Source: a virus
Strand: one strand, 5' to 3'
Virus record (IMG/VR): IMGVR_UViG_3300024999_000186
Span: 1 to 43,358 of that record
Length of the DNA stretch: 43,358 nt
Every line of letters begins with the position of its first letter. Position 1 is the first letter of the stretch. The position numbers and the translations under genes were made by a program. Below are positions 3,372 to 40,093 of this stretch, in pieces. Under the pieces are notes generated by a model. The model worked only from the letters and a program-made list of their open reading frames with translations. It was not told where the DNA came from and did no database searches.

Positions 3372-3536
3372 TATTTATTACCGCCTTCCTTTCTAAAGCT
3401 ACAAATGGAATAAGAAGCTTAAACTTGTAAAGGTCAAATTTTCGCTTCTCGTTTTACACTCTGTCATCAGGTATCGATCCCTAATGGAGAAACCATAAAA
3501 TTATCCAACCTAAACTTAAAAAACCACAAACAAAAA

Positions 3537-12781: not shown

Positions 12782-15700
12782 TTACTTCTCTAAGATACTT
12801 TCGTCTAGGCGTAGTGGGATATAGAAGTAGTTGCTTTGTATATTTGTATTAATCATTGGTGTTATTAAATTAATTATTTGACCAATTATTATCAATATAA
12901 GTTCGTTATTGTATTTAATAACAATTGGTAAGAAAGAACATCCTGAAATTGAATTTGTCAAAATTAAATCAGATGTCAAGAATGTTAAAGATATATAACC
13001 ATCAATATAAAGCTTTAAAGTATTTACATCCCTATATAATTCATAGCCAAAAGTCTGACTATTTGACATATCCATCCACCCTGCCTTAATCAGCCCACTC
13101 TTATACCTAGCGTCTAATGCTTTTAAATCAGTAGGATTCAATTTATAAGGAGCAGTTACAGCACTACTTCCAAACTGATTCACAACGCTACCATAAATTC
13201 TATCATAGACATTTAACACTTGTTCTCCTGCTACACTATACTTTCCACCACTACCACAGCATGTAAAATACATCCTCTCAGGCTTCGCTAATACTTGATA
13301 ATTAGCACTTGTGATCCCAGTAGGAACTAATCGCTGACTAGGAATATATTCATAAGCGACTGCAATATCTGGTACTGGGTTATTAAAGGCTACTTTGAGT
13401 TCTCTGGTGTATTGGTCTGACATGTATGCTTGGAATGGGGAGATTTTTACTACTCTACGATTTGTAGTATCTACAATAACTAGATTTCCTAAATTATCCA
13501 CAGCACACCCGTATGGTGTATTCAACCCAGTATTATCTGTTTTACTAACTCCTGTTACTCCAAACTGAGACACATATTGCAAGGAAGAATTTAGTTTAAC
13601 TAGACGATGATTGTTCTGATCAACTATATAAATACTCCCGGAAGAATCAACAGAACAACCTCTAGGACTATTTAATCCAGTATTATCAATCTTGGCACTA
13701 CCAGTTACACCAAATTGTCCTACATATTGGAGTGAAGAGTTTAATTTAACTAACCTATAGTTAGCGTAATCACTCACATAGATATTATCTAAAGAGTCTA
13801 ATACACACCCATAAGGATTTCTCAATCCTGTATTGTCAGTTTTAAATATGCTAGTTACTCCAAACTGACCTACATACTGAAGAGAAGAATTAAGTTTGAC
13901 TAGACGATGATTAGTTGTATCTGCAATATAGATATTCCCCATTGTATCAACAGCACATCCACTAGGGGCGTATAACCCAGTATTATCGGTTTTATAAGTC
14001 CCAGTGACTCCAAATTGCCCTACATATTGTAAGGAAGAATTTAGTTTGACTAGTCTATGATTAGTTAAATCGGCTATATATATATTACCACTAGAATCTA
14101 CTGCACAACCATAAGGAGTATTTAATCCAGTATTGTCAGTTTTTGTGACCCCTGTTACACCAAATTGTGATACATACTGTAATGATGAATTTAATTTTAC
14201 TAAACGTTGGTTAGTTGTATCTGCAATATAGATATTCCCTGAAGAATCAACAGTACATCCACTAGGATTATTCAACCCAGTATTATCGTTCTTACTCGTC
14301 CCAGTAACCCCAAATTGCTTCCAAGTAGCATCAACACCACCAACCTCAACACTCAATACCTGACTATTCTCAGGAAGATATTGAAGTCCCTGACCTTGTG
14401 GATAAATAACTGTTGACAATACATTTAATTCAGCACTTCCTAAACCTCCATTATTACTCGTTAATGCTCCTACAGTAAATATAGCAGTATTCGTAGCAAG
14501 TCCAGTCCATGTTCCTGCAACTGTGATTACTCCACTGATTTGATAAACTGAAGTTGCATCTGGAGCAATTGTCCATGCTGGAACTGTTAATACTTTAGTT
14601 GAGCCTATATAAGATGAAACTGTCCTTGATTGTCCTGCACCTGTTCCAGATACGATATTAATGTTTAGTCCATTATAGGCACTATCAACACTTGAAGCAG
14701 TATCATCCAAAGTAATAGTCGTTGCATCACCTGCTGTAGCAGTCCCACTAATATCTATAAATGCTTTAACCAAAGGTACAGAAGTACTTGCTGTGTTCTC
14801 TACGATTAAATCGCTAGGAGAAACCGTTACAGAAGATCCTACAGTAATCGTTAAATTCGTAGCATCTACAGCAGATATGGTTAAATCAGCAGACACAGTA
14901 TTTGTTGCTTGATAATAAAGTTTTACAGTATCATTGACTGCTAAACCAGTTACACTAGACACAGGAATAATAGTTGAAGCTACTACCGACTTCGTAATAC
15001 TTGTATAAACAGTATCGGCATCTAATACCCCTGATACAATACCAGATAAAAGCTTGATTTCAATGGTATCGTTTGCTGACCAAGGCTGGTCTTGTGTTCC
15101 TGCTTTCTTTTGGGAAGTCGTAAACTCAAAGGTTGTATCTTGTGGAAGAGATGTATTACCGTAAGTTCTTTGAACCCCATCCATGTTTTGTGTACCCATG
15201 ATGGCATTAGGGTATTTTTCATTCCATTGCATCCACATATCGTCTGGTGGATTGGTGATTTTGATGAGGCGGTGGTTGGAGGTGTCAGCGATATAGAGGT
15301 TTCCATAAGAATCTATCGTACAACTTTGCGAATAATTTAATCCAGTATTATCGCTCTTAGATGTGCTAGTTATTCCAAATTGACCAATATACTGTAGTGA
15401 TGAGTTTAATTTTACTAAACGATGGTTACCAGCATCAGATATATAAATATTATCATCTGAATCAACTGCACAACCATAAGGACTATTTAACCCTGTATTA
15501 TCAGTTTTAGTTGTCCCAGTAATCCCAAATTGGGTTACGTATTGTAGGGATGAATTTAATTTGACTAATCTATGGTTAGTCAAGTCTGCAATATAAATAT
15601 TACCAGATGAATCAACCGTACATCCATAAGGATTATTTAATCCACTATTATCAGCTTTACTTACACCTGTAACTCCATATTGGCCTATATATTGCAAAGA

Positions 15701-18262
15701 TGAATTCAACTTGACTAAACGCTGATTACTACTGTCTGCAATATAAATATTACCTGATAAATCAATGGAACAACCTCTTGGGGAATTTAAACCAGTATTA
15801 TCAGTTTTAGCCACCCCAGTGACACCAAATTGAGATACATATTGTAATGATGAATTTAACTTCACTAAACGGTGGTTACTAGCATCGGCTATATAGATAT
15901 TACCTGAAGAATCTACTATACAACCATACGGGTATTTTAGTCCTGTATTATCTGATTTATAAGTTCCTGTTACTCCGAATTGACTAATATACTGAAAAGA
16001 TGAATTTAACTTCACTAAACGGTGATTACTAGTGTCAGCAATATAAATATTACCAGATGAATCAACCGTACATCCATAAGGATTATTTAATCCACTATTA
16101 TCACTCTTACTAACCCCTGTAACCCCAAACTGCTTAAACCGTCCAATATACTCCTTAACTAACCTCTTCCCTGCCATAGTAGTCAACTTACCTGTCATAA
16201 ACTTCTGAATACCATCATTCATGAGTTGCTGATAATTGTTGCCTGTTAATGATACTTTATGGCGAAGTGGGATGATGTCACGAGGGTCGATGACGTTAGC
16301 ATATAAACCATCTGGCCTATCAGAAATATATGGTTTAATAGTTGCACTTCCAGTAATAGAACCAGTAGTTCCAGTTGCTAATATCAAATTAACTGTAAAT
16401 GTTGTAGCACTATCAATAGAAACGATAGAATATAAAACAGTTGTGGCATTAGATGAAAATACAGTATCTCCAACATTCATATTTGCTGTGCTATCTACTG
16501 TTAATTGAGATGGTGTTCCTAATGTTATTGTTACTGTACCTATGTTTTTAGTAGCAGAATAATATGATTTTGCACCATTAGGATTTAAACGAGAATATAT
16601 AGTGGAATTGCGTCTTGGAATCTTAAATAATGGAATTGAATATGAATATCCATCAAATGAAACTAAAGTTGTTTTATCCCCTGCACTTCCACTTCCACTC
16701 AAAAATAATCCACTATCCGTAGCTGATTTTGTATAAGTCAAAACAGTATCAGCAGAATTTCCTCCCCATGCTTTTACATTAGTTGTATCATTAATTCCTT
16801 CTGCATAAGTATTAAAATTAACATTAGCAACTGTTCTAAGTCTATAGCTCATTTGATAAGAATTTGTTGTTGGAAAATATGCTTCAAGGAATACCAAATC
16901 TTCTCTATATCCTGAAATATCTGATACAGGTAACGTTACGACAGTTTGTGGAACAGTTATTTTATATCCATTTATAAATGCTTCAAATGCAGATATTGTT
17001 ACTCCATTAAGATTAGTTGTTGAACCTGTGATAGTAGGAAGTATAGTTACTCCAGAATATATCGAATTCTGAACTATTCCTGCTTGTGCTTGTGCGACAA
17101 CCGATAAATTATTCCAATTTGCTGTATCTGTATCTGCAACAAATCTATGAGTTGAATCATTTAAAATAACTGCAGCAGGAGTTTGACCATTACTATCTAA
17201 TTTTAATATTTTATTTGCACCAGAATTACCACTATTTAAAGTCAGAACTGGAGTAGTAGTTCCTGTAGCAATTGATATATCAGTATTTGCAGAAGTTACA
17301 CTAACAACTGAACCTGCTTGTGCAATTAATATAAAATAAGTAGCATTTGTTGGAAGATTACCTGTTGAAGCAAGAATACATTGATATGTACTACCAAGAT
17401 ATATAACTTTATTTAAAGGGATATAAGAATTAGAAGGGTTGTATGGTTCTATTAATTGGAAGGCTGTATTATTATTTTGCCTAATGGCTTCTTGATTTCC
17501 TCTAGTTACTTCATTTGACGATCTTATAGTCTCACTATTCCCTCTAGTAATTTCATTTGTAACTCTTAATCCCTCTGCTGTCAATCTTTCTTGCTCTGTA
17601 CTGTTTCTAGATTGTTCTGACGCGATTCTAACATTTTCTGACTCTACACGAATTTCCTCTGCTATAACTCTATTTCCCTCAGATGAAACTCTACTTAATT
17701 CTACTGTTTCACGTAAATCTTCTGATACAACACGACCATTCTCATTTAATTCTCTTTGAGATTCATTGGATTCTCTCTGAATTTCATTTAATTCTCTTTG
17801 AGATTCATTGCTAATTCTAATTACTTCTGCTCCTTGAGCTAATTCATTTGTTGCTTCTGTTGCAATTCTAACTTGATCCGTAGCGTCAGTTAAGCTTTGT
17901 AATGTTTGAGTTACATTATTATTTTCATCTAATACAGTATAAATCATGCTGGTTGGAACATAATGTAATCCTGTACCCATAAAATCAAATTGTAATTGTA
18001 ATCCATTTCTACTTAAATGGAATGTAATTATATTAATATCATAATCAACTACATAGGTATTTTCAGTAGGTATTCCACTTGTCTGTTCTATCCAAGTAAT
18101 ATTCTCTCCTGTGACAATTACCTTAGAAAATGAGTCTGGTATTTCAGAAAGTTGAACTGTTGAATTTGTGATAGTGTGAGATTCGCTGATGGATAAAAAT
18201 GGCGATTCTGTATTTCCGATTCTGCGTTTTGTAATTATACTGTTATTAAATAGAAATGACAA
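12782..18262 (-). CDS. giant tail fibre/adhesin with two NHL beta-propellers
   Basis: 1826 residues; start is TTG at 18262 behind AAAGGAGG. Order: N-terminal virion-attachment part (1-120); a charged coiled coil of repeated R-x-x-x-E/N-E blocks (about 130-280); a beta-rich stretch (300-700); six NHL repeats (about 710-1005); a beta-rich Ig-like stretch (1010-1315); six more NHL repeats (about 1316-1608); and a C-terminal domain. Each repeat is 50 residues with the core Q-F-G-V-T-G, D-N-T-G-L-N, G-N-I-Y-I-A-D, N-H-R-L-V-K-L. Two six-bladed propellers are therefore predicted, a likely receptor-binding device. NHL domains bind proteins, glycans or RNA in other systems; the ligand here is unknown. 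Confidence 0.75.
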   Translation of the reverse strand: MSFLFNNSIITKRRIGNTESPFLSISESHTITNSTVQLSEIPDSFSKVIVTGENITWIEQTSGIPTENTYVVDYDINIITFHLSRNGLQLQFDFMGTGLHYVPTSMIYTVLDENNNVTQTLQSLTDATDQVRIATEATNELAQGAEVIRISNESQRELNEIQRESNESQRELNENGRVVSEDLRETVELSRVSSEGNRVIAEEIRVESENVRIASEQSRNSTEQERLTAEGLRVTNEITRGNSETIRSSNEVTRGNQEAIRQNNNTAFQLIEPYNPSNSYIPLNKVIYLGSTYQCILASTGNLPTNATYFILIAQAGSVVSVTSANTDISIATGTTTPVLTLNSGNSGANKILKLDSNGQTPAAVILNDSTHRFVADTDTANWNNLSVVAQAQAGIVQNSIYSGVTILPTITGSTTNLNGVTISAFEAFINGYKITVPQTVVTLPVSDISGYREDLVFLEAYFPTTNSYQMSYRLRTVANVNFNTYAEGINDTTNVKAWGGNSADTVLTYTKSATDSGLFLSGSGSAGDKTTLVSFDGYSYSIPLFKIPRRNSTIYSRLNPNGAKSYYSATKNIGTVTITLGTPSQLTVDSTANMNVGDTVFSSNATTVLYSIVSIDSATTFTVNLILATGTTGSITGSATIKPYISDRPDGLYANVIDPRDIIPLRHKVSLTGNNYQQLMNDGIQKFMTGKLTTMAGKRLVKEYIGRFKQFGVTGVSKSDNSGLNNPYGCTVDSSGNIYIADTSNHRLVKLNSSFQYISQFGVTGTYKSDNTGLKYPYGCIVDSSGNIYIADASNHRLVKLNSSLQYVSQFGVTGVAKTDNTGLNSPRGCSIDLSGNIYIADSSNQRLVKLNSSLQYIGQYGVTGVSKADNSGLNNPYGCTVDSSGNIYIADLTNHRLVKLNSSLQYVTQFGITGTTKTDNTGLNSPYGCAVDSDDNIYISDAGNHRLVKLNSSLQYIGQFGITSTSKSDNTGLNYSQSCTIDSYGNLYIADTSNHRLIKITNPPDDMWMQWNEKYPNAIMGTQNMDGVQRTYGNTSLPQDTTFEFTTSQKKAGTQDQPWSANDTIEIKLLSGIVSGVLDADTVYTSITKSVVASTIIPVSSVTGLAVNDTVKLYYQATNTVSADLTISAVDATNLTITVGSSVTVSPSDLIVENTASTSVPLVKAFIDISGTATAGDATTITLDDTASSVDSAYNGLNINIVSGTGAGQSRTVSSYIGSTKVLTVPAWTIAPDATSVYQISGVITVAGTWTGLATNTAIFTVGALTSNNGGLGSAELNVLSTVIYPQGQGLQYLPENSQVLSVEVGGVDATWKQFGVTGTSKNDNTGLNNPSGCTVDSSGNIYIADTTNQRLVKLNSSLQYVSQFGVTGVTKTDNTGLNTPYGCAVDSSGNIYIADLTNHRLVKLNSSLQYVGQFGVTGTYKTDNTGLYAPSGCAVDTMGNIYIADTTNHRLVKLNSSLQYVGQFGVTSIFKTDNTGLRNPYGCVLDSLDNIYVSDYANYRLVKLNSSLQYVGQFGVTGSAKIDNTGLNSPRGCSVDSSGSIYIVDQNNHRLVKLNSSLQYVSQFGVTGVSKTDNTGLNTPYGCAVDNLGNLVIVDTTNRRVVKISPFQAYMSDQYTRELKVAFNNPVPDIAVAYEYIPSQRLVPTGITSANYQVLAKPERMYFTCCGSGGKYSVAGEQVLNVYDRIYGSVVNQFGSSAVTAPYKLNPTDLKALDARYKSGLIKAGWMDMSNSQTFGYELYRDVNTLKLYIDGYISLTFLTSDLILTNSISGCSFLPIVIKYNNELILIIIGQIINLITPMINTNIQSNYFYIPLRLDESILEK
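13440..14317 (-). repeat. second NHL array: six 150-bp tandem repeats
   Basis: Six units of about 150 bases encode the second propeller. The amino-acid core is nearly constant while third codon positions differ between units, so the array is old or under selection to vary at DNA level. The last unit is the most divergent (V-V-K-I-S-P). Confidence 0.85.
15250..16133 (-). repeat. first NHL array: six 150-bp tandem repeats
   Basis: Six units of about 150 bases encode the first propeller. The final unit (N-Y-S-Q-S-C, L-I-K-I-T-N-P) is degenerate, as expected for a closing blade. Units are as similar to those of the other array as to each other, suggesting duplication of a whole propeller or gene conversion. 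Confidence 0.85.
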
Positions 18263-22181: not shown

Positions 22182-23399
22182 TTAAATCACCTCCTCTACC
22201 TTCCAATCATCTAATATAATTTGCGTAAATGTTCTATCCGAATTGACAAGTTTATTTATTGATTCAATTAATTGTTCTAGTGTAGGAATTTTATGACTAC
22301 TTTTAATTCTTAATATCTTCCATCCTTGAGACTTTGTGAATTCATCTCGTTTTCTATCCTTTTGCTGATCTTTATGAAAATACTGAGCATCATATTCTAA
22401 ATTTATTTTTATATTGTCAATAAAAATAGCTACATCTAAATTCATTCTACTTAATGGATAATTTAACTCTACTATGTAATTATTTTCTTTTAACATACCA
22501 AATATTTCTAATTGTTGTGTTGATGTAGGACATGTTCCATTTTTATAAAATGATTTTGCTACTTTTGCTTTAATAAAAGCATTTTGACTTGGATTCTCCT
22601 TCCCCCAATTTTTTAGTGACGTTTCTTTAAATCTGATCTTAAATTCTTCTGTTTGTGAATAGTATTCTGTTCCATATGTATCCAGATTAGTTTGTTTCAT
22701 TTTTTCACGGACTTCTGCATTAGAAGAGGGTGATTTCCCTCCGTACCTATCTATATTTGTTTGACTTGCCTTTTCTTTAATATCTATATTCTGCATAGCA
22801 TAATCTACATCATATTTTTCTTGGCATGTATCTTTAGATTTTTGTTTAATTTTTTCATTTTGAAAAACATTATCTACACCGTATTTCTTATTGACTGTAA
22901 TCTTTGTTTTATCTTTTACGTGTTGGTTTTGACCTGGATGATCGAACCCATATTTTTTATTACTTGTTATTTTATATTTCAATTTAAATTCGTCTGTTTT
23001 AGTATAATTATCTACTCCATATTTCTCGTTAAGAGTAATTTTGCTTTTTTCTTTAGCACTTTCTAATTGAAATATACTATTAACTCCATATTGTACAAAA
23101 TTTGATTCTTTTACCTTAAATTTTGTACATTTCTTGCAACAGTCTTTTGTTATTAAACTATTTTTAGTTTGCCTAATATATGTTGAATATGCTGTCTTTT
23201 TTAAAGTGAATATATTACATTCTAAACAATAATCACACAAAGTTACTATCTCCACGCTACTACCATTACTTAAATCTTCTACTTTTACTTCAAATTCATC
23301 ATTCCATTTAGTAAAAGTATAATCAAGTTTTTCATACCATTCTCTAGTTTCTGAACGCCATTTTACTTTTACACTTTTAGTCAATATCATTATCTTCAC
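22182..23399 (-). CDS. KYG-repeat homing endonuclease (Vsr-like, EDxHD type)
   Basis: 405 residues; GTG at 23399 behind AGAAGGGAT, or ATG three codons later. An N-terminal domain (K-V-K-W-R-S, D-L-S-N-G-S-S-V-E-I) carries C-x-x-C pairs and resembles the N-terminus of the HNH gene at 27529-28662. Eight repeats of about 24 residues follow (K-Y-G-V-D-N-x-x-Q-x-x-x-x-K-x-K), a DNA-binding array known from phage homing endonucleases such as I-Bth0305I. The C-terminus has L-D-V-A-I-F, L-E-Y-D, H-K-D, R-D-E-F and W-K-I-L-R-I: a Vsr-like nuclease core. Its last codons contain the ribosome-binding site of the next gene. Confidence 0.8.
   Translation of the reverse strand: MKIMILTKSVKVKWRSETREWYEKLDYTFTKWNDEFEVKVEDLSNGSSVEIVTLCDYCLECNIFTLKKTAYSTYIRQTKNSLITKDCCKKCTKFKVKESNFVQYGVNSIFQLESAKEKSKITLNEKYGVDNYTKTDEFKLKYKITSNKKYGFDHPGQNQHVKDKTKITVNKKYGVDNVFQNEKIKQKSKDTCQEKYDVDYAMQNIDIKEKASQTNIDRYGGKSPSSNAEVREKMKQTNLDTYGTEYYSQTEEFKIRFKETSLKNWGKENPSQNAFIKAKVAKSFYKNGTCPTSTQQLEIFGMLKENNYIVELNYPLSRMNLDVAIFIDNIKINLEYDAQYFHKDQQKDRKRDEFTKSQGWKILRIKSSHKIPTLEQLIESINKLVNSDRTFTQIILDDWKVEEVI
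22185..22194 (-). promoter_or_regulatory. ribosome-binding site inside the endonuclease 3' end
   Basis: AGGAGGTGAT, complementary to the 16S rRNA tail, overlaps the endonuclease codons E-E-V-I and ends one base before its stop. Only ATC occurs at the correct distance in the frame of the Ntn/fibre gene. Confidence 0.7.
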
Positions 23400-23441: not shown

Positions 23442-23518
23442 AATTAAGGGGTGTGGTTACATGGATTAAATAAACCATTATTAGCAGAATTAATTACTTT
23501 CTGCGCAACCCCTTAATT
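23442..23518 (-). other. branched stem with two inner hairpins (Y-type element 1)
   Basis: Outer 11-bp stem AATTAAGGGGT (23442-23452)/ACCCCTTAATT (23508-23518), followed leftward by TTTTTTATG. Inside: TGGTT/AACCA (23454-23458, 23473-23477) and GCAGAA/TTCTGC (23484-23489, 23499-23504). It lies directly after the endopeptidase stop and upstream of the KYG-repeat endonuclease. It acts most likely as a terminator. Confidence 0.65.
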
Positions 23519-25407: not shown

Positions 25408-26604
25408 TTATGATACTTCTTCTAGTTTAGATGTTAATATTTCTTCTATGTTATTAAAATCATAATACCAAATTTCAAGAAAGTTATACCCATTTGATAA
25501 AGCATATTCCTTCTTGCGTCTATCATGTTCTTGTTGAATTCTAAATTCTTCTGGTGTTTGATTTCCTGCCGTCCCATCATGGTATTCACCTTGATACTCT
25601 ATAAGTAAATTATATTTAGGTAAATAAAAATCATAAGATAATAATCCATTTCCAACACCTAATAAGTTTTTAAATGTTTTTTGTGGAATAAAATATATGT
25701 TATTATTTTTATTTATTAATTTATCATACTCTTCTTGAATTATTTCTATATATTCTTTAGATATAAAAACTCTTTTACATTCTTTTTCACCTTTAGACTT
25801 ATTACATTCTGGACATCCTCTATTATTATTTCTTTTTGCAATCTGTGTAAACCATTCATTACCACATTCTTTACATTTCCACCAAACTTCTTGATTGGCA
25901 TTTGGACAATACTCCTCTGGATTTTTCTTGTTTTTATCATAATTCCATTCTCCACACAATCCAGGATTACAGACCAATAAATTATATTCTTCTGAAGGGA
26001 CTTTACCTGAACAATAAGGACAATTAGTATTATTCCTATTATTTATGGATGTTTTCCAAATGTGCTTAGAATTATTGTGACATAACCACCAAACTTCTTT
26101 ACTACTACATGAAGTTACATTCCAAGGAGTTAAATCACCGTTAAACGTAGGATGAAATTCTTTGGCTAATTCAGGATTCTTAGTAGCAAGACAATTAGAC
26201 AAAGTTACTTGATTGCCTGAACAAACACCGCAACCATGATCACAAAAAATATCATTCCATGTATTAGAAAATATTTCTTGACACCCATCTTTTAAACATT
26301 GCCATTTTAATTTAATAGTATTACCTTGATATATTTGATTATCGATCAATATAAAAGGCTTATTATTTAATTTACACCATAATTTTATATTTTGTATTGT
26401 ATATGGATTTCGTTTTTCAAATTTAGAAGGTTTTCTGCATGATATTAAATTACATAATGTAACAAAATATAAATATCCTTCTACATCTTCTAAAATTAAT
26501 TTTATTTTAGTATTACTGTATTTCTCACTTATTAGTTTATATCCTAAATTATTAACTATTATTTTCACTTCTTCATATGTATATCTAGTAGTTTTTCCTC
26601 TCAT
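25408..26604 (-). CDS. zinc-ribbon-repeat homing endonuclease (PD-(D/E)xK/Vsr-like)
   Basis: 398 residues, ATG behind GAGGAG. N-terminal T-Y-E-E-V-K module, then three DUF4379-like zinc ribbons (L-A-T-K-N-P-E-L-A-K-E-F-H-P; W-W-L-C; W-W-K-C; C-P-E-C). The C-terminus has L-S-Y-D-F-Y-L-P, I-E-Y-Q-G-E-Y-H-D, E-H-D-R-R-K and F-L-E-I-W-Y: the catalytic D...ExQGxxH of a Vsr-like nuclease. It is a close relative of 38604-39971 and shares its N-terminal architecture with 1746-3371. It is inserted between Dit and the endopeptidase. Confidence 0.8.
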   Translation of the reverse strand: MRGKTTRYTYEEVKIIVNNLGYKLISEKYSNTKIKLILEDVEGYLYFVTLCNLISCRKPSKFEKRNPYTIQNIKLWCKLNNKPFILIDNQIYQGNTIKLKWQCLKDGCQEIFSNTWNDIFCDHGCGVCSGNQVTLSNCLATKNPELAKEFHPTFNGDLTPWNVTSCSSKEVWWLCHNNSKHIWKTSINNRNNTNCPYCSGKVPSEEYNLLVCNPGLCGEWNYDKNKKNPEEYCPNANQEVWWKCKECGNEWFTQIAKRNNNRGCPECNKSKGEKECKRVFISKEYIEIIQEEYDKLINKNNNIYFIPQKTFKNLLGVGNGLLSYDFYLPKYNLLIEYQGEYHDGTAGNQTPEEFRIQQEHDRRKKEYALSNGYNFLEIWYYDFNNIEEILTSKLEEVS

Positions 26605-26668
26605 AATATCAACTCCTCAAATTTGATTCATATTCTTCTTCATTCCCTCAAAAACTACACAACAAAAT

Positions 26669-26726
26669 AGAGCAGAAGTGTTGAGGACACTTTGTCGTTG
26701 GTTTGCAATTCCAACCCATCTGCTCT
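26669..26726 (-). other. branched RNA element, copy A (Y-type element 2)
   Basis: Outer stem AGAGCAGA/TCTGCTCT (26669-26676, 26719-26726). Inside are AAGTGT/ACACTT (26676-26681, 26687-26692) and GTTGG/CCAAC (26697-26701, 26711-26715). It lies after the Dit stop, upstream of an endonuclease gene. Nearly identical to copy B at 28723-28780; most differences are in the loop. Confidence 0.7.
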
Positions 26727-26774
26727 AAAAATTTTCTTATTAAATTAACAAATATTAATAAAATCATATTTAAT

Positions 26775-27563
26775 TTATACGAGAAATCGAAATTCGTAAT
26801 AAAATTGTAATTTAACATTTCCGTATATTTGTAAAGAATTTATTCCATATGGTATAGTCATAAAAACTGAATCAGATGAAAGTTTGTCATACCTATAAGT
26901 TAAAATTTGATCTGTTGTTATATCTTCATTTTCAGTATTAATTGTAATAATTTCATTATTTGCAATTCCTGTAAAACTCATTTTCTTTCCTCCATCAGAC
27001 AAATTCACAATAGAAAAAGTTCCACCAGATATTACTTGAATTGTAGCAACAAAAAACATATTAATATCGCCACTATTAGTTAAAGTTATATTCGTTCCAC
27101 CTACTTCATTAGAAGATAAATCATATAAAACTGTAGAATAAACTGGAGAAAATACATATGGTGAATTTAATCTGAATTGCAGACTAATATATCCTTGACT
27201 ATTTCCAGTATGTATTAAATTATTTTCATCGATGCATAAAGCGTAATAAATCTTATCTGGATTCTCTGAAAAAATCAATGGACAATAATAATCCTTTTTT
27301 AATGCTCTAGCTACTGCATGAAGTTTATCTTCGTCAAATCCATTATAAAATGCAAAAGATACTTGAATTTGTTTAGGACTTTCTATTGCTTCGATAAAAT
27401 ATGGTTTTTGATTATATCTGGTTGTTTGTTCAATTATGTTTCTGTTCGATAAAAATGTTTCCTGATATAATCCTGAATTATCAACATGAATATTCATAAT
27501 GCCAAATTCTTCATAAAAGTTAATTCCATCATATGTAAAATAGAGGGATTCTGAAATTGACAT
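26775..27563 (-). CDS. distal tail protein (Dit)
   Basis: 262 residues, ATG behind GAGGTG. N-terminus with Y-D-G-I-N-F-Y-E-E-F-G-I and later K-Q-I-Q-V-S-F-A-F-Y-N and L-H-A-V-A-R-A-L-K-K fits the phage Dit/Sipho_tail family; the C-terminal half is a beta-sandwich-like region. It forms the hub joining the tail tube to the baseplate. It is directly downstream of the tape measure apart from an inserted HNH gene, whose last 35 bases overlap its start. Confidence 0.7.
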   Translation of the reverse strand: MSISESLYFTYDGINFYEEFGIMNIHVDNSGLYQETFLSNRNIIEQTTRYNQKPYFIEAIESPKQIQVSFAFYNGFDEDKLHAVARALKKDYYCPLIFSENPDKIYYALCIDENNLIHTGNSQGYISLQFRLNSPYVFSPVYSTVLYDLSSNEVGGTNITLTNSGDINMFFVATIQVISGGTFSIVNLSDGGKKMSFTGIANNEIITINTENEDITTDQILTYRYDKLSSDSVFMTIPYGINSLQIYGNVKLQFYYEFRFLV

Positions 27564-28662
27564 GTTTATTCACCTCGCTTTTATTGAGACTATTACTAAC
27601 AAATTCATACCATTGCTCAGGAGTGTTATCCCCATATCCATAAATAGAATGAAATTTTTTATGATCTATAGAATTAACAAAAACCCCTAAAAGATTATTA
27701 TTTTTATTTACAAATAATGTTTCTATATTTTGTAATTCTTCTAATGTATATTTATTAACTTCATCATAAATAGGCAAATCTAATTCCTTTAATGTTTCTT
27801 TCAGTATAATATTTACAGACAATAAATGATGAACTTCAAAAGTGCCATCGGAATCTTTATTTGTTAATACACATCTATAATGACTTTGTTGCATACTTTT
27901 TTGTTTCCACTTATATAATAAATGTCTTAAATGAACTGCAAGAGGTGATATACCACCTTTCCAATTATAATTATTTTTCCCAGATACTTTTTCAAGTCCA
28001 CAATAATAACATCCAAAAACTGAAGATAAGAGAGACGTAAATTTAATTTTCTGAACCCATTTTTCAGGATGTTTAGGACATATATATAACAACTCTTGAT
28101 TTCCGTTTTTATAAATATTACTTAATAAAATTAAATTCTTTCTATTAAATTCCTTTTTTATAACATCATTACTTAGTCGTGAGGCATCTGCACCAATTTC
28201 AGACGCACAAATTCTACAGCCGCTTTTATTGTATTTATTTTTATTACTTTTAATTGCACTATAACTCGTTGTTTGTATTCCTACCTCAATATGTTTTAAA
28301 CAAATATATTTTAAACTTGTATTAAAATTTTTAAATTCATTAATATCACTTATCAATATAAAATTATTTTCTTTGAATCCTTTTTTAACAATCTCAAATC
28401 TGTTTTCTCTATCGCATTTTCTACAAAAATCAGTATTATCATACAACTTTTTATGTTTTTGTAAATACTCGCGAAATGGTATTGGAATTTCTTTTCCACA
28501 TTTATCACATTTGTAAACTATCTTTACATGACTCTGATCTGTCAAATCTTTTACGTCAATAGATATTTCATCACCTTTTTTTGTATATATGTAACCATTA
28601 TTTTCTAAATTAATTCTATTTGACATATTCCACTTAACCACAACTGTTTTTGTAATTAACAC
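27529..28662 (-). CDS. HNH homing endonuclease
   Basis: 377 residues; GTG start with GAGGAG upstream. N-terminal domain (V-V-V-K-W-N-M-S, D-L-T-D-Q-S-H-V-K-I) with C-x-x-C and C-R-K-C zinc pairs is shared with the KYG-repeat endonuclease. Two further zinc-knuckle-type segments follow (C-L-K-H, C-P-K-H-P-E). The HNH nuclease lies at about residues 235-290: Y-R-C-V-L-T then F-E-V-H-H-L-L, with a final H-K-K-F-H. Inserted between the tape measure and Dit genes; its 3' end overlaps the Dit start by 35 bases, so its C-terminus (V-N-F-R-I-P-L-F-Y-I) was recruited from the Dit start region. Confidence 0.8.
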   Translation of the reverse strand: MLITKTVVVKWNMSNRINLENNGYIYTKKGDEISIDVKDLTDQSHVKIVYKCDKCGKEIPIPFREYLQKHKKLYDNTDFCRKCDRENRFEIVKKGFKENNFILISDINEFKNFNTSLKYICLKHIEVGIQTTSYSAIKSNKNKYNKSGCRICASEIGADASRLSNDVIKKEFNRKNLILLSNIYKNGNQELLYICPKHPEKWVQKIKFTSLLSSVFGCYYCGLEKVSGKNNYNWKGGISPLAVHLRHLLYKWKQKSMQQSHYRCVLTNKDSDGTFEVHHLLSVNIILKETLKELDLPIYDEVNKYTLEELQNIETLFVNKNNNLLGVFVNSIDHKKFHSIYGYGDNTPEQWYEFVSNSLNKSEVNKHVNFRIPLFYI

Positions 28663-28722
28663 TTATTATCATCTCCTCAAATTTGATTTCGCATAATATC
28701 TCAAAAATTTCACAACAAAAAT

Positions 28723-28780
28723 AAAGCAGAAGTGTTGAGGACACTTTGTCGTTGGTTTATAACTCCAACCTATCTGCTCT
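28723..28780 (-). other. branched RNA element, copy B (Y-type element 3)
   Basis: Same structure as copy A: outer stem AAAGCAGA/TCTGCTCT with one mismatch, inner AAGTGT/ACACTT and GTTGG/CCAAC. The loop of the second hairpin differs between copies (TTTGCAATT against TTTATAACT) while its stem is kept. It lies after the tape measure stop, upstream of the HNH gene. The following ribosome-binding leader (CAAATTTGAGGAG) is also shared. Confidence 0.7.
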
Positions 28781-28828
28781 AAAAAATATCTTATTAATAA
28801 ATTAAAAATAAAGAAGTGGTGAAATTAA

Positions 28829-31800
28829 TCACCACTTACCCATTTTTTTTAGACCATTTGCTATTGTCGAAAATACCAAATCTGCTCCAGATTTATCTCC
28901 ATTCATGTTTTCAATAGTTAAATTCAGATTATAATTAATAGGGTTATTAGAATTACCTGCTACGACAGGTTGAAATGAAGGGATATTGAATGTTGGTAAT
29001 TTAAAATTAGACATAAATGTTCTAGACAAATCTACTGCTTTTAAAATATTAGACGTATCTATTTTATTTAAGACTAATTCTTTTGAATGTAACATTGCTA
29101 ATTTACCAGAAGAACCTCCCCAATCGCCTGTATACCCACCAGTATCATACGAACCAGTCTTACTAGCTTTAAATTTCTGCACAATTCCATCTGCCGTAAG
29201 AGTATATGTTTGACCATCAACATATGATTGTAAAGGAGTTACAGCATAATTAGATTCATTTGTCTTTGTTATATTAACCGCAACTTCTTTACCTTGACTA
29301 TCTACAACATTAACAACTGGTGTTCCATGAGCACTAGAATATCCAATATTCCAAACCTTATCAACATTTACAGTAGGAGTATTGCCATTTGCATTATTAG
29401 CATCCATTTCTGCTGATTGCTCTTCATTTGAAGTATTTGCTCTTGCTTGTTGTGCTGATGATGCTTGAGCTTGAGACGCTTGCAATGCCGCTTGTGCTGC
29501 TAATGCTGATTGAGCATTTTGACTAGCTGCTGTTACTTGATCAATAATTTTCTGTAAACCTTGCCAACTAACACCTAAATCATCAAGAGTCGCTTTATTT
29601 TGGGATGAAAAATATGCGTTAAAAGCATCAAAATCACTTTGAATTTCAGCAAAATTTCCAGCATAAATTTCTTGTCTAATTCTAGCAAATTCTCGTTCAT
29701 CATTTATCAGACCATCATAGTAAGCAGTAGTTATTTCTTTCTGTTTTTCAACTGCTTTCGTATTGTTTTCCTTTTGCTCCTCTAAATTATTTTTCTGTAA
29801 CTCAGTATCTCTATGTCTTTGCTTAGTTGCTATAGCGGTTTGTTGTTCAGATAATTGCTTAGATAATTCTAATTTTTTTGCTTTACCCTCAATACTATTG
29901 TCTAAAGATAAAGCGTCAATTTTACTTTGCAATTCTAATGCTTTTTTCTGATCACTTGCTAAATCTTCATTATAATCTGTATCAGAAGAAGCATCACTTA
30001 AAGCTTTAATTTTAGTATCAATTAATTCATCATAAGCTTCTTTTTGTTTTTCAATACTAGCTAATGCAATTTCTTCTTGTTGCTTATATGCTGCTTTATA
30101 AGCTTCAATAACTTTATCCGCAATATCACTATAAGATTGAGCAATAGAAATTTGTGTATCAACAATTGATGATTTTGAAGCATCTATCGCTGCTTTTGTT
30201 TTTAACCATTCAGCAGTTCCCTCTTTTTGAGTTTTTAACAATGCTTCTAATGCAACTAATTCTGATTGTTGTGATTCCAATTTAATATTTTGATCTTTAA
30301 TACTATCTGCTTCTATTTTAGAAATTTCTTCCTGAGATTTACCCTGTAATTTTGCAAGAGCAATTAATTTTTCATTATAAGCAATCTCTGTTTCTAAATT
30401 AGATTGAATATCATCAAATGGTTTTGTTAAATTATCAAATTTAATATTAGCAATTTCTTGAGCAGTTTGTTCAATTGCAATTTTAGCGTCAATAATTTTT
30501 GTATTAACTTCTCCAAGTTTTTCAGATGCTTGTTGAAATTCTTGTGAATTTGCTAATGCATTTGCTAAATCAGTTTCGGTATAATCTTTATCTACCAGTG
30601 CTAAACTTGCCCTTACACTTGCTTCAGCTTCAGCTTTATCTTTTTCTAATTGAGCTTTCTCAGCTAAAAAAGTAGTTTGTTCTCCTTGCTTTGTCTTTAG
30701 AATTTCTTCTTCCGTTGCTAATTGATCCTCAATGCTTGCACCGATTAGTTTTTGATATTCTAATGTCTTTTGCAAATCTGAAACTTGATTTTCGGCAAGT
30801 TGCTGTGCTTTATCAAATCCCTCATATTCTGCTTCAAATTTTTCTTTAACGAGTTGTTTGATTGATAATTGAGCAGATTTTTGAGCATCAAAATTGGATT
30901 TAATCTTTCCTAAAACATCTCTTGTTTGCTCATTGTCATCATATGTTCCATCATCATTTTTATATTTAGCAATAGAATCATATAATTCATCAATATTAGC
31001 AGATGCAACAGTTATGGCTTCTTGATAAAGATTTATTTTCTGTTCAATATATTGGGCGGAATTTAAATTAGCTAATGCTTTTTGAGTTGCAATAAGTTTT
31101 TGAGTGAAGTCAGTTTTTGTAGCTTTTTGAGCATCAAGAATAGCTTGATCTGATTCTGCTTTTGTTACTAGTTCAGAATTTTTTGATGTTTCTTTCTCAA
31201 TATTTTTTTGTGTTCTAGCAACTGTTCTTTCAGCACTTCTTGAACCAACATATTTATCTTTATATGTTCCATCTTCATTTAGGTATTTTGATAAAGTTTT
31301 TTCATATCCAGCAATTTTCTTATCCGATTTTTCTACGGCAGTATTGTCTTTTGCAACTATCTTTGTTGTTTTTGCAATTTCTTTACTAATGTCAGAAATT
31401 GATTGAGCAAATTCATCTAAACTATCATTAAGAAAATCAATATCAGTGATGTGAGAACCAGTGCCAGTTTCGTATGCAGGGATTCCATTTTTCTTAAGAA
31501 ATTCTTCAGTTTCGGAATTTGGATAAATCTTTGTTCCCTTTGGCAAATCTGATATTGTTGCTTTATCATCACTTAAAAATATTGTTCCATTTGGTAATTC
31601 AACTAATTCTCTACCAGCTTCACCATAGATAGCATTTCCACCTGGATGAGAATCTGTGCCTTTAGCATTTACAGTTGCTTGAGTTACAGTTTTTACGTAA
31701 ATGGTATGAATTGATGATGTATCAATTTGTAATTCTGCTATAGCTTGTTTTGCAGCAATGTCATCTGCGATAATTGTTAGAGTTGCATCATATTCTTTAG

Positions 31801-38603: not shown

Positions 38604-39971
38604 TTATATCGCTTGTTTAATTTCTATGCTGTTTAAACATTTATTCAAAATAATTTCAATATTATCAAAATCCCAATACCAAATTTCTATGAAATTATAT
38701 CCATTAGTTAAAACATATTCCATTTTACGTTTATCATGTTCTTTTTGTTTTAATAATCTTTCTTCAGCTAATTCTCTTGGTTCGTTTTTATAATATAAAA
38801 TTATCTTATCATGATATTCGCCTTGGTATTCTATTAATAGATTATATTTAGGCAGATAAAAATCATAAGATAGTTTACCATTACCTAAACCTAATAAATC
38901 ATCAAATTCTTTTTGAGGAATGTAATAAATATTTATTAAATCAAAAATTCTCTTAATTTCTTTTTCTCCTTTGGATTTATTACATTCAGGGCATCCAGAA
39001 TTTTTTCCGTCTTTTCTATTTCTATCTCCAATACTAGCACTCCATTCATGACTACACTCTAAACATCTCCAATATACGTGCTTACTACTACTAGGAGTAT
39101 ACTCATATGGCTGTTTATCGTTCTTGTTATAATCCCATTCTTCACATAATTTTGGATTATTGATTAATAAATTATAGTCTTCACTAGGTAACTTACCTGA
39201 ACAATATGGACAATTACAACCATCTATTCCATTTCTATTATTGATTGTAGAATCCCATTCATGATTATTTTTACACTTCCACCATACTTTTTGTCTGCCA
39301 CTTTCCGTTACATCATAAGGAGTTAAATAACCATTCTTAGTTGGATGCCATTCAGAGGCTAGTTCTGGATTTTTAGTTGCAAGACAATTAGATAAACTTA
39401 CTTGCCTTCCATCGCAAACTCCACATCCACCTCCTTGTTGAATGTCAGACCAAGTTGATTGAAATATTTCTCTACAACCATCCTTTAAACATCTCCATTT
39501 TAATTTTTTATAGTTATTCTCATAAATCTGTTCTCCAATTAATTCAAAACACTTTTTATTTAACTTACACCACAATTTTATATTTCGCATTGTAAATATA
39601 TTTGATTTATAGAATTTATTTGGATTTCTTCGAGAATACAAATTATCAAAAGAAATTGAGTAATAATATCCATCTTTGTCTTTAAAAATCAATTCCGTCT
39701 TATTGTTCTTATACTCTTTACTAATTATTTGTAGATTAATATTATTTAATAATAACCATAATTTTATATTCTGGATTGCATATGGATTACTTTTATGAAA
39801 TTTATACGGAATACGACCACTTTTAATATCATTAAGTGTAATTTTATAAAAATATTCTTCGGTGTCCTTTATAATTAATTTACTAAAAACACCTAAATAT
39901 TCTTTACTTATTAGTTCATATCCTAAATCATTAACAAACTTCTTAACTTCTTCATATGTATATTTTTTCAT
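38604..39971 (-). CDS. zinc-ribbon-repeat homing endonuclease (PD-(D/E)xK/Vsr-like)
   Basis: 455 residues, ATG behind TGGAGGT. Begins Y-T-Y-E-E-V-K-K-F-V; two tandem 'isKeYl...yfYkIt/YsIsf...NiklW' modules, then three DUF4379-like zinc ribbons (L-A-T-K-N-P-E-L-A-S-E-W-H-P, W-W-K-C, Y-W-R-C, C-P-E-C). The C-terminal nuclease has L-S-Y-D-F-Y-L-P, I-E-Y-Q-G-E-Y-H-D, E-H-D-K-R-K and F-I-E-I-W-Y. It is the closest relative of 25408-26604. It has an extra N-terminal module compared with that one. Confidence 0.8.
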   Translation of the reverse strand: MKKYTYEEVKKFVNDLGYELISKEYLGVFSKLIIKDTEEYFYKITLNDIKSGRIPYKFHKSNPYAIQNIKLWLLLNNINLQIISKEYKNNKTELIFKDKDGYYYSISFDNLYSRRNPNKFYKSNIFTMRNIKLWCKLNKKCFELIGEQIYENNYKKLKWRCLKDGCREIFQSTWSDIQQGGGCGVCDGRQVSLSNCLATKNPELASEWHPTKNGYLTPYDVTESGRQKVWWKCKNNHEWDSTINNRNGIDGCNCPYCSGKLPSEDYNLLINNPKLCEEWDYNKNDKQPYEYTPSSSKHVYWRCLECSHEWSASIGDRNRKDGKNSGCPECNKSKGEKEIKRIFDLINIYYIPQKEFDDLLGLGNGKLSYDFYLPKYNLLIEYQGEYHDKIILYYKNEPRELAEERLLKQKEHDKRKMEYVLTNGYNFIEIWYWDFDNIEIILNKCLNSIEIKQAI

Positions 39972-40034
39972 TTCTTTCTACCTCCAATATTTTATCTACT
40001 CCAAACCTAAATAAAAAATAAATATAAATATAAA

Positions 40035-40093
40035 TACAGAGGAGGGTGGAGTATTCCCATTGAGTTTATAACTCTCAATTTTTATCCTCTGTA
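40035..40093 (-). other. branched stem with two inner hairpins (Y-type element 4)
   Basis: Outer 9-bp stem TACAGAGGA (40035-40043)/TCCTCTGTA (40085-40093). Inside: GGG/CCC (40044-40046, 40056-40058) and ATTGAG/CTCAAT (40059-40064, 40074-40079). Leftward it is followed by TTTATATTTAT. It lies after the 57-residue gene and upstream of the endonuclease gene, the same arrangement as elements 1-3. Confidence 0.55.

Follow-up and report, generated by a model that had tools for sequence, protein, structure and literature searches.

A three-way-junction RNA leader of phage homing-endonuclease-type genes with a probable role in translational control

The HEARO and IscB omega-RNAs are structured RNAs of 150-200 nt found upstream of HNH-type nuclease genes. 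In phages T4 and Aeh1, the Shine-Dalgarno (SD) sequence of nuclease genes is sequestered by RNA hairpins (PMC2988022). The int-alpA family (RF02996), typed in Rfam as a small RNA (sRNA), has no known function, and a literature search found it mentioned only as a listed sRNA. Here we describe an RNA element that occurs in near-identical copies in an SPbeta-like phage with tape measure and Dit genes, represented by positions 1 to 43,358 of IMG/VR virus record IMGVR_UViG_3300024999_000186 (the window, meaning the whole stretch of 43,358 nt that was analysed). From comparison with its relatives we think it probable that this element, a divergent relative of int-alpA, is the 5’ leader RNA of homing-endonuclease-type genes and affects their translation in cis.

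Both copies are on the minus strand, where the genes are read leftwards, at 26726-26669 (element A) and 28780-28723 (element B), after the tape measure and Dit genes and before nuclease genes. The coordinates agree with the original prediction, which was made from the window alone. The copies are identical at 53 of 58 positions (91%; entry D10 in a repeat search of the window), and three of the five differences fall in loop 2, in line with the earlier remark that they are mostly confined to one loop; the others are one change in the joining segment J1/2 and one G-C to G-U change in stem P1. Each copy has a P1 of 8 bp, a P2 of 5 bp with a 9-nt loop, and a P3 of 5 bp closed by the loop CCUCA. 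In element A these are P1 at 26726-26719/26676-26669, J1/2 TGG between P1 and P2, P2 at 26715-26711/26701-26697 with loop 2 at 26710-26702, J2/3 GACAA at 26696-26692, and P3 at 26691-26687/26681-26677 with loop 3, CCTCA, at 26686-26682; element B has the same anatomy. The downstream CAAATTTGAGGAG leader, which contains the SD, is common to both, as had been noted. The isolated elements fold more stably than shuffled sequences (z=-3.35 for A and -3.10 for B); longer stretches around A and B have no such advantage (z 0.36 and -0.09), so the comparative evidence carries the weight.

The original prediction had proposed a covariance-model check, and we ran it with a model, R1, that excludes the window copies. 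R1 was built from five leaders on other contigs (loci L041, L071, L075, L081 and L019), taken upstream of relatives of the Vsr-type gene behind element A. In a search space of 444 kb it recovered element B at E=3.3e-5, element A at E=0.042 and a third window site, 23442-23513, at E=0.06. A second model, R2, was built from 26 matches including these three sites, which it scores at E=2.9e-8, 2.2e-6 and 5.3e-6, respectively, as members of its own alignment; it adds a fourth site at 40030-40093 with E of about 0.05. Each of the 15 base pairs has changed on both sides in the alignment of the 26 sequences, and 97.8% of cells are paired, a count inflated by the fitting of the alignment to the structure, with a margin that is still very large: none of 500 shuffles comes near it, and sliding the partner abolishes the signal. 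Covariation in these relatives indicates that the structure of the element is under selection, as had been suspected from the two copies. The unpaired core is conserved as well, with UA in J1/2 and YGANAAG in J2/3; among 51 elements the J1/2 letters are T in 46 and A in 49, and J2/3 and the start of P3 read G, A, A, A, G in 41, 46, 47, 46 and 42.

Chance or a duplicated terminator as the explanation of the copies is ruled out by the independent model matches and the covariation. Some matches and alignments were discarded: the R1 match L018:74 is antisense within a gene, the R2 match L161 (E=0.009) lies inside an ABC-transporter gene, the R2 match at window 28804-28901 falls on a terminator-like hairpin, and several MAFFT leader alignments had the 3’ arm of P1/P3 misplaced. 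That hairpin (28804-28850) directly follows the tape measure gene and lies a short way upstream of element B, and similar hairpins precede elements in L013, L014 and L066.

Downstream of the junction nearly every leader has two stretches complementary to loop 3; they are copies of one short sequence, here called site A and site B, and the second is the SD. This potential pairing of loop 3 with the SD and with an upstream duplicate of it had been overlooked. In the window, all on the minus strand, element A has site A (TTGAGG) at 26646-26651 and site B (TTGAGGA, complementary to loop 3 plus its closing pair) at 26614-26620 in the SD of the Vsr-type gene, and element B has site A (TTGAG) at 28700-28704 and site B (TTGAGGA) at 28674-28680 in the SD of an HNH gene. 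The layout is regular throughout the family: elements sit 34-94 nt ahead of a start codon, site A mostly begins 12-22 nt after P1, and site B mostly ends 8-13 nt upstream of the start codon.

We compared 39 distinct loops with their own downstream sequences, which lie outside every model, and as a control swapped loops and downstream sequences between leaders. The best contiguous loop 3 match averages 6.15 bp against 4.54 bp after swapping, and the second best 5.36 against 3.77 bp. For fixed regions the values are 5.18 against 3.62 bp at site A and 5.79 against 4.27 bp at site B, and 0 of 1000 swaps reach either. The matches extend to sequences outside the SD consensus: loop 3 TCCGAA of L126 faces TTCGGA and TCGGA, ACCAATC of L157 faces GATTGG and GATTGGT, and TTCCGAG of L160 faces CTCGGAA and TCGGA. 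By this comparison loop 3, site A and site B evidently evolve jointly.

A mechanism of the following kind would account for this arrangement. P1, P2 and P3 form a three-way junction with the conserved core. Pairing of loop 3 with site B would cover the SD and block the ribosome, and pairing with site A, just after the junction, would leave the SD free. As the two pairings are mutually exclusive, the leader would switch between two states and in this way limit or time the synthesis of the nuclease. Site A is nearer to the junction and is transcribed first; the predicted duplex with site B is the stronger (mean -8.3 against -6.3 kcal/mol for site A). Folding during transcription, a ligand or a protein are candidates for what sets the balance. 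Such a leader probably controls when the cutting enzyme is made.

An open reading frame (ORF) of more than 100 aa begins within about 95 nt downstream of 47 of the 51 distinct elements, a count that is biased because the first loci were fetched by nuclease. These 47 ORFs include 33 with DUF4379, three GIY-YIG, two HNH_repeat, two DUF7487 and one helicase-like. Two less biased sets were therefore added. In whole-contig searches of phages, all 11 matches outside the fetched loci (L125, L127, L128, L132, L137, L138, L140-L143 and L147) precede nuclease-type ORFs. Among 195 Clostridiaceae genomes drawn by taxonomy, all four new matches below 1e-3 (L157-L160) precede nuclease-type genes, namely GIY-YIG and Vsr-type genes and, in one case, a short ORF that carries the N-terminal domain of nuclease-type genes; L161 was the fifth match in this set. 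Sequence comparison thus places the element as the leader of homing-endonuclease-type genes of several classes, and the earlier observation that it accompanies different nuclease genes extends across DUF4379/Vsr, HNH, GIY-YIG and DUF7487 types. Other searches yielded little: blastn of the element against annotated phages gave chance matches only, the HNH protein as query found no related loci in viral contigs, the reference phages SPbeta, Goe17, E3 and Lietuvens and C. difficile phages had no significant element, and under strict filters there were 0 matches in 399 Bacilli and 1 in 391 genomes of a first Clostridia sample, counts from which absence does not follow.

One alternative is autoregulation, in which the nuclease, for instance through its zinc-finger N-terminus, would bind the junction and repress its own translation, with loop 3 pairing as the output. 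The DUF4379 zinc fingers in 33 of the 47 proteins and a layout that suits operator-type control speak for this; GIY-YIG, DUF7487 and HNH_repeat proteins and the helicase-like gene, which have no obvious common domain, use the same leader type, and we regard autoregulation as unlikely, if the best placed of the alternatives.

Relatives that differ in nuclease content bear on a second alternative. In L113, whose Dit is 55% identical, 60 nt separate the tape measure gene from Dit and hold no element and no nuclease, and the Dit-Tal junction is likewise empty; this phage carries elements with nucleases elsewhere (L132, L141). The original prediction had singled out nuclease-free relatives as the place where an element after the tape measure or Dit gene would count against it, and L113 has none at either position. 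L112 is 97% identical over Dit and the Vsr-type gene, with the A site unchanged; between tape measure and Dit it has the B-type flank and leader followed by a short Vsr-type remnant instead of the HNH gene, and the ORFs of L112 and the window diverge from the start codon. Leader and nuclease thus arrive together, and the one case of L112 supports the view that the nuclease behind a leader can change, the direction and mechanism of the change being read from it alone. We also observed solitary elements with no gene directly behind them and no clear sites (L020:6983-7041, also L023, L096, L103 and L129), which are perhaps remnants after nuclease loss.

The earlier suggestion of a recombination handle would explain conservation by mobility, with identical flanks allowing nuclease exchange by homologous recombination. 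The flank and leader common to L112 and the window agree with this, as do the 91% identity of A and B before unrelated nucleases. A handle would, however, need sequence identity and not compensatory changes, whereas members of the family diverge widely in sequence yet keep the structure and the loop 3-SD match; the position relative to the start codon is fixed, and two co-resident elements of one contig, L137 and L147, are unlike in sequence. Exchange behind a kept leader stands, in one case; the handle as the function of the element does not and is improbable, because the match of loop 3 to the SD and to its duplicate, with both sites at fixed positions, is a sign of translational control. 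Sharing of the leader is likely a by-product.

In L005, L101, L106, L131 and L147 a consensus-like sigma-70 promoter (TTGACA...TATAAT or TTTAAT) stands ahead of P1, ending a few bases from it, and promoters ending at P1 in such single cases are the arrangement expected for a 5’ leader. They would also suit an element for RNA stability or processing at the 5’ end of the transcript, in which the loop 3 contacts form only a compact pseudoknot, and so would a three-way junction with complementarity to downstream sequence. That proposal, to which we give little credence, leaves unexplained why the second site coincides with the SD and covaries with loop 3.

The relation to int-alpA is one of kinship at a distance. 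The window copies gave no match to RF02996 at the gathering score or at E up to 10, most other relatives are also below Rfam recognition, and no known Rfam family, riboswitches included, was matched in the window. Four sibling leaders (L005:3918, L060, L063 and L080) are above the RF02996 cut-off of 35.8 bits, their scores from highest to lowest being 48.4, 46.8, 44.6 and 38.3 bits. R1 recovers two of these Rfam-positive leaders, L063 and L060, together with L064, a near-copy of them, at E=0.003-0.012 in the same 444 kb; its match to E. coli int-alpA is weak (E=0.13). The Rfam model had no match over 196 Clostridia, where the controls were silent too. By Rfam's rule the window copies and most others are not members of RF02996; their kinship with it lies in the structure, the core letters, the layout and the link through R1. 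Both have the P1-P2-P3 junction, UA in J1/2, GAAAAG in J2/3 (present as a GAAAA-type core in the set of 51) and a loop 3 that matches its own 3’ tail. In E. coli int-alpA, which has an integrase gene on one side and on the other a gene of about 300 aa that belongs to no known family, loop 3 is matched by a site downstream of P1 and by the SD of the gene that follows: AAACCTTA faces TAAGGT and AAGGT in L151, and AAACCCTA faces TAGGG and AGGGT in L156; for L152 and L153 the match to the SD is limited to 4 bp. The setting differs: in E. coli the copies stand behind an integrase and ahead of a prophage gene, whereas the leaders described here stand before nucleases in Firmicutes-type phages; the window copies are not beside integrase and alpA genes. 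The comparison offers a concrete, testable mechanism for int-alpA, whose function may be cis control of the next gene, and it reveals a far broader group in the phages of Clostridia-type bacteria, standing before nuclease genes of at least four classes. That int-alpA and these leaders are one superfamily of two-state translational switches, carried by unrelated mobile genes and sensing a signal (ligand, protein or infection stage) through a junction that is a true aptamer, is a tentative extension. A trans-acting small RNA that is freed from the nuclease transcript and targets other mRNAs by way of a pyrimidine-rich loop 3 would suit the Rfam typing and the likeness of loop 3 to the anti-SD, but it is very improbable given that loop 3 tracks its own downstream sites, non-SD sequences included, and that the elements stand so regularly before a start codon.

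Several observations weigh against translational control of nuclease genes by this leader. The control is not nuclease-specific, and exclusivity to nucleases is not fully supported: the gene behind L108:636-691, an element whose loop 3 matches both sites, is not a nuclease gene but a helicase-like one of 659 aa, and E. coli int-alpA precedes a prophage gene of unknown function that is not known as a nuclease. At 4-9 bp the loop 3 pairings are short. Because it has to look like the complement of the anti-SD, site B is partly constrained in its similarity to site A, and the swap control offsets this only on average. The third window element has weak loop 3 sites, and in a pooled promoter test over the whole set -10 boxes were not enriched at a fixed place.

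The genes behind A and B are as first described. The gene at 25408-26604 (minus strand, as are all window features that follow up to the repeat arrays) combines DUF4379 treble-clef zinc fingers (Pfam PF14311, E=6.7e-31) with a Vsr-like C-terminus read from the sequence; that at 27529-28662 encodes, by its translation, a zinc-binding N-terminal part and an HNH C-terminus, and has a weak DUF4379 match and a tblastn match to the SPbeta yomD endonuclease. The HNH reading frame overlaps the start of the Dit gene (27529-27563), as though insertion had cost the gene its own end. The third and fourth elements had been overlooked. The third (23513-23442) is upstream of a nuclease-type gene with DUF7487 and DUF559/MTES_1575-like Pfam matches at 22182-23399. 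The fourth (40093-40030; R2 E=0.024-0.052, not in the model), with loop 3 TACTCCA facing TGGAGTA at site A and TGGAG at site B, is upstream of another DUF4379/Vsr-type homing-endonuclease-type gene at 38604-39971 (PF14311, E=3.8e-36). A different leader type, with P1 AATGG/CCATT and GTGTAAAACGAGA, stands before DUF4379 genes at window 3372-3530 and in L031, L037, L042, L045 and L087; its loop 3 seems complementary to the SD only (CCTATA with TATAGG in L042, CCTTTAA with TTAAAGG in L045). A third type, GGAGGATA... CCTCC, with GGAGGATATGNCATGTCGTGA in some, precedes DUF4379 genes in L047, L059, L077, L079 and L089 and the L020 nuclease. Two arrays of direct repeats of about 150 nt lie at 13445-16159 inside an 1826-aa ORF (12782-18262).

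Compared with the HEARO and omega-RNAs, the element is short (about 60 nt) and its loop matches the SD of its own mRNA; the HEARO Rfam model had no match in the window at gathering, and an RNA-guided nuclease reading (bridge RNA, omega-RNA) found no support, as loop 3 complements its own leader. Translational riboswitches likewise have a junction followed by mutually exclusive pairings, one of them over the SD, but here there is no known ligand and no Rfam riboswitch match. The T4 and Aeh1 leaders (I-TevI, segB, mobE) are alike in that an RNA structure acting in cis covers the ribosome-binding site of a phage nuclease gene (PMC2988022), and the present elements also lie upstream of homing-endonuclease-type genes with a predicted structure able to cover the SD. 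In T4 and Aeh1 the structures are simple hairpins, specific to each gene and coupled to a late promoter, whereas the present leaders use a single conserved junction, with an alternative pairing, for many nuclease classes. If our reading is right, selfish nuclease genes have a common, exchangeable control module of simple natural design, one loop with two near-identical targets of which one is the ribosome-binding site, and it would be a second, structured and widespread solution to the task met in T4 and Aeh1 by SD hairpins.
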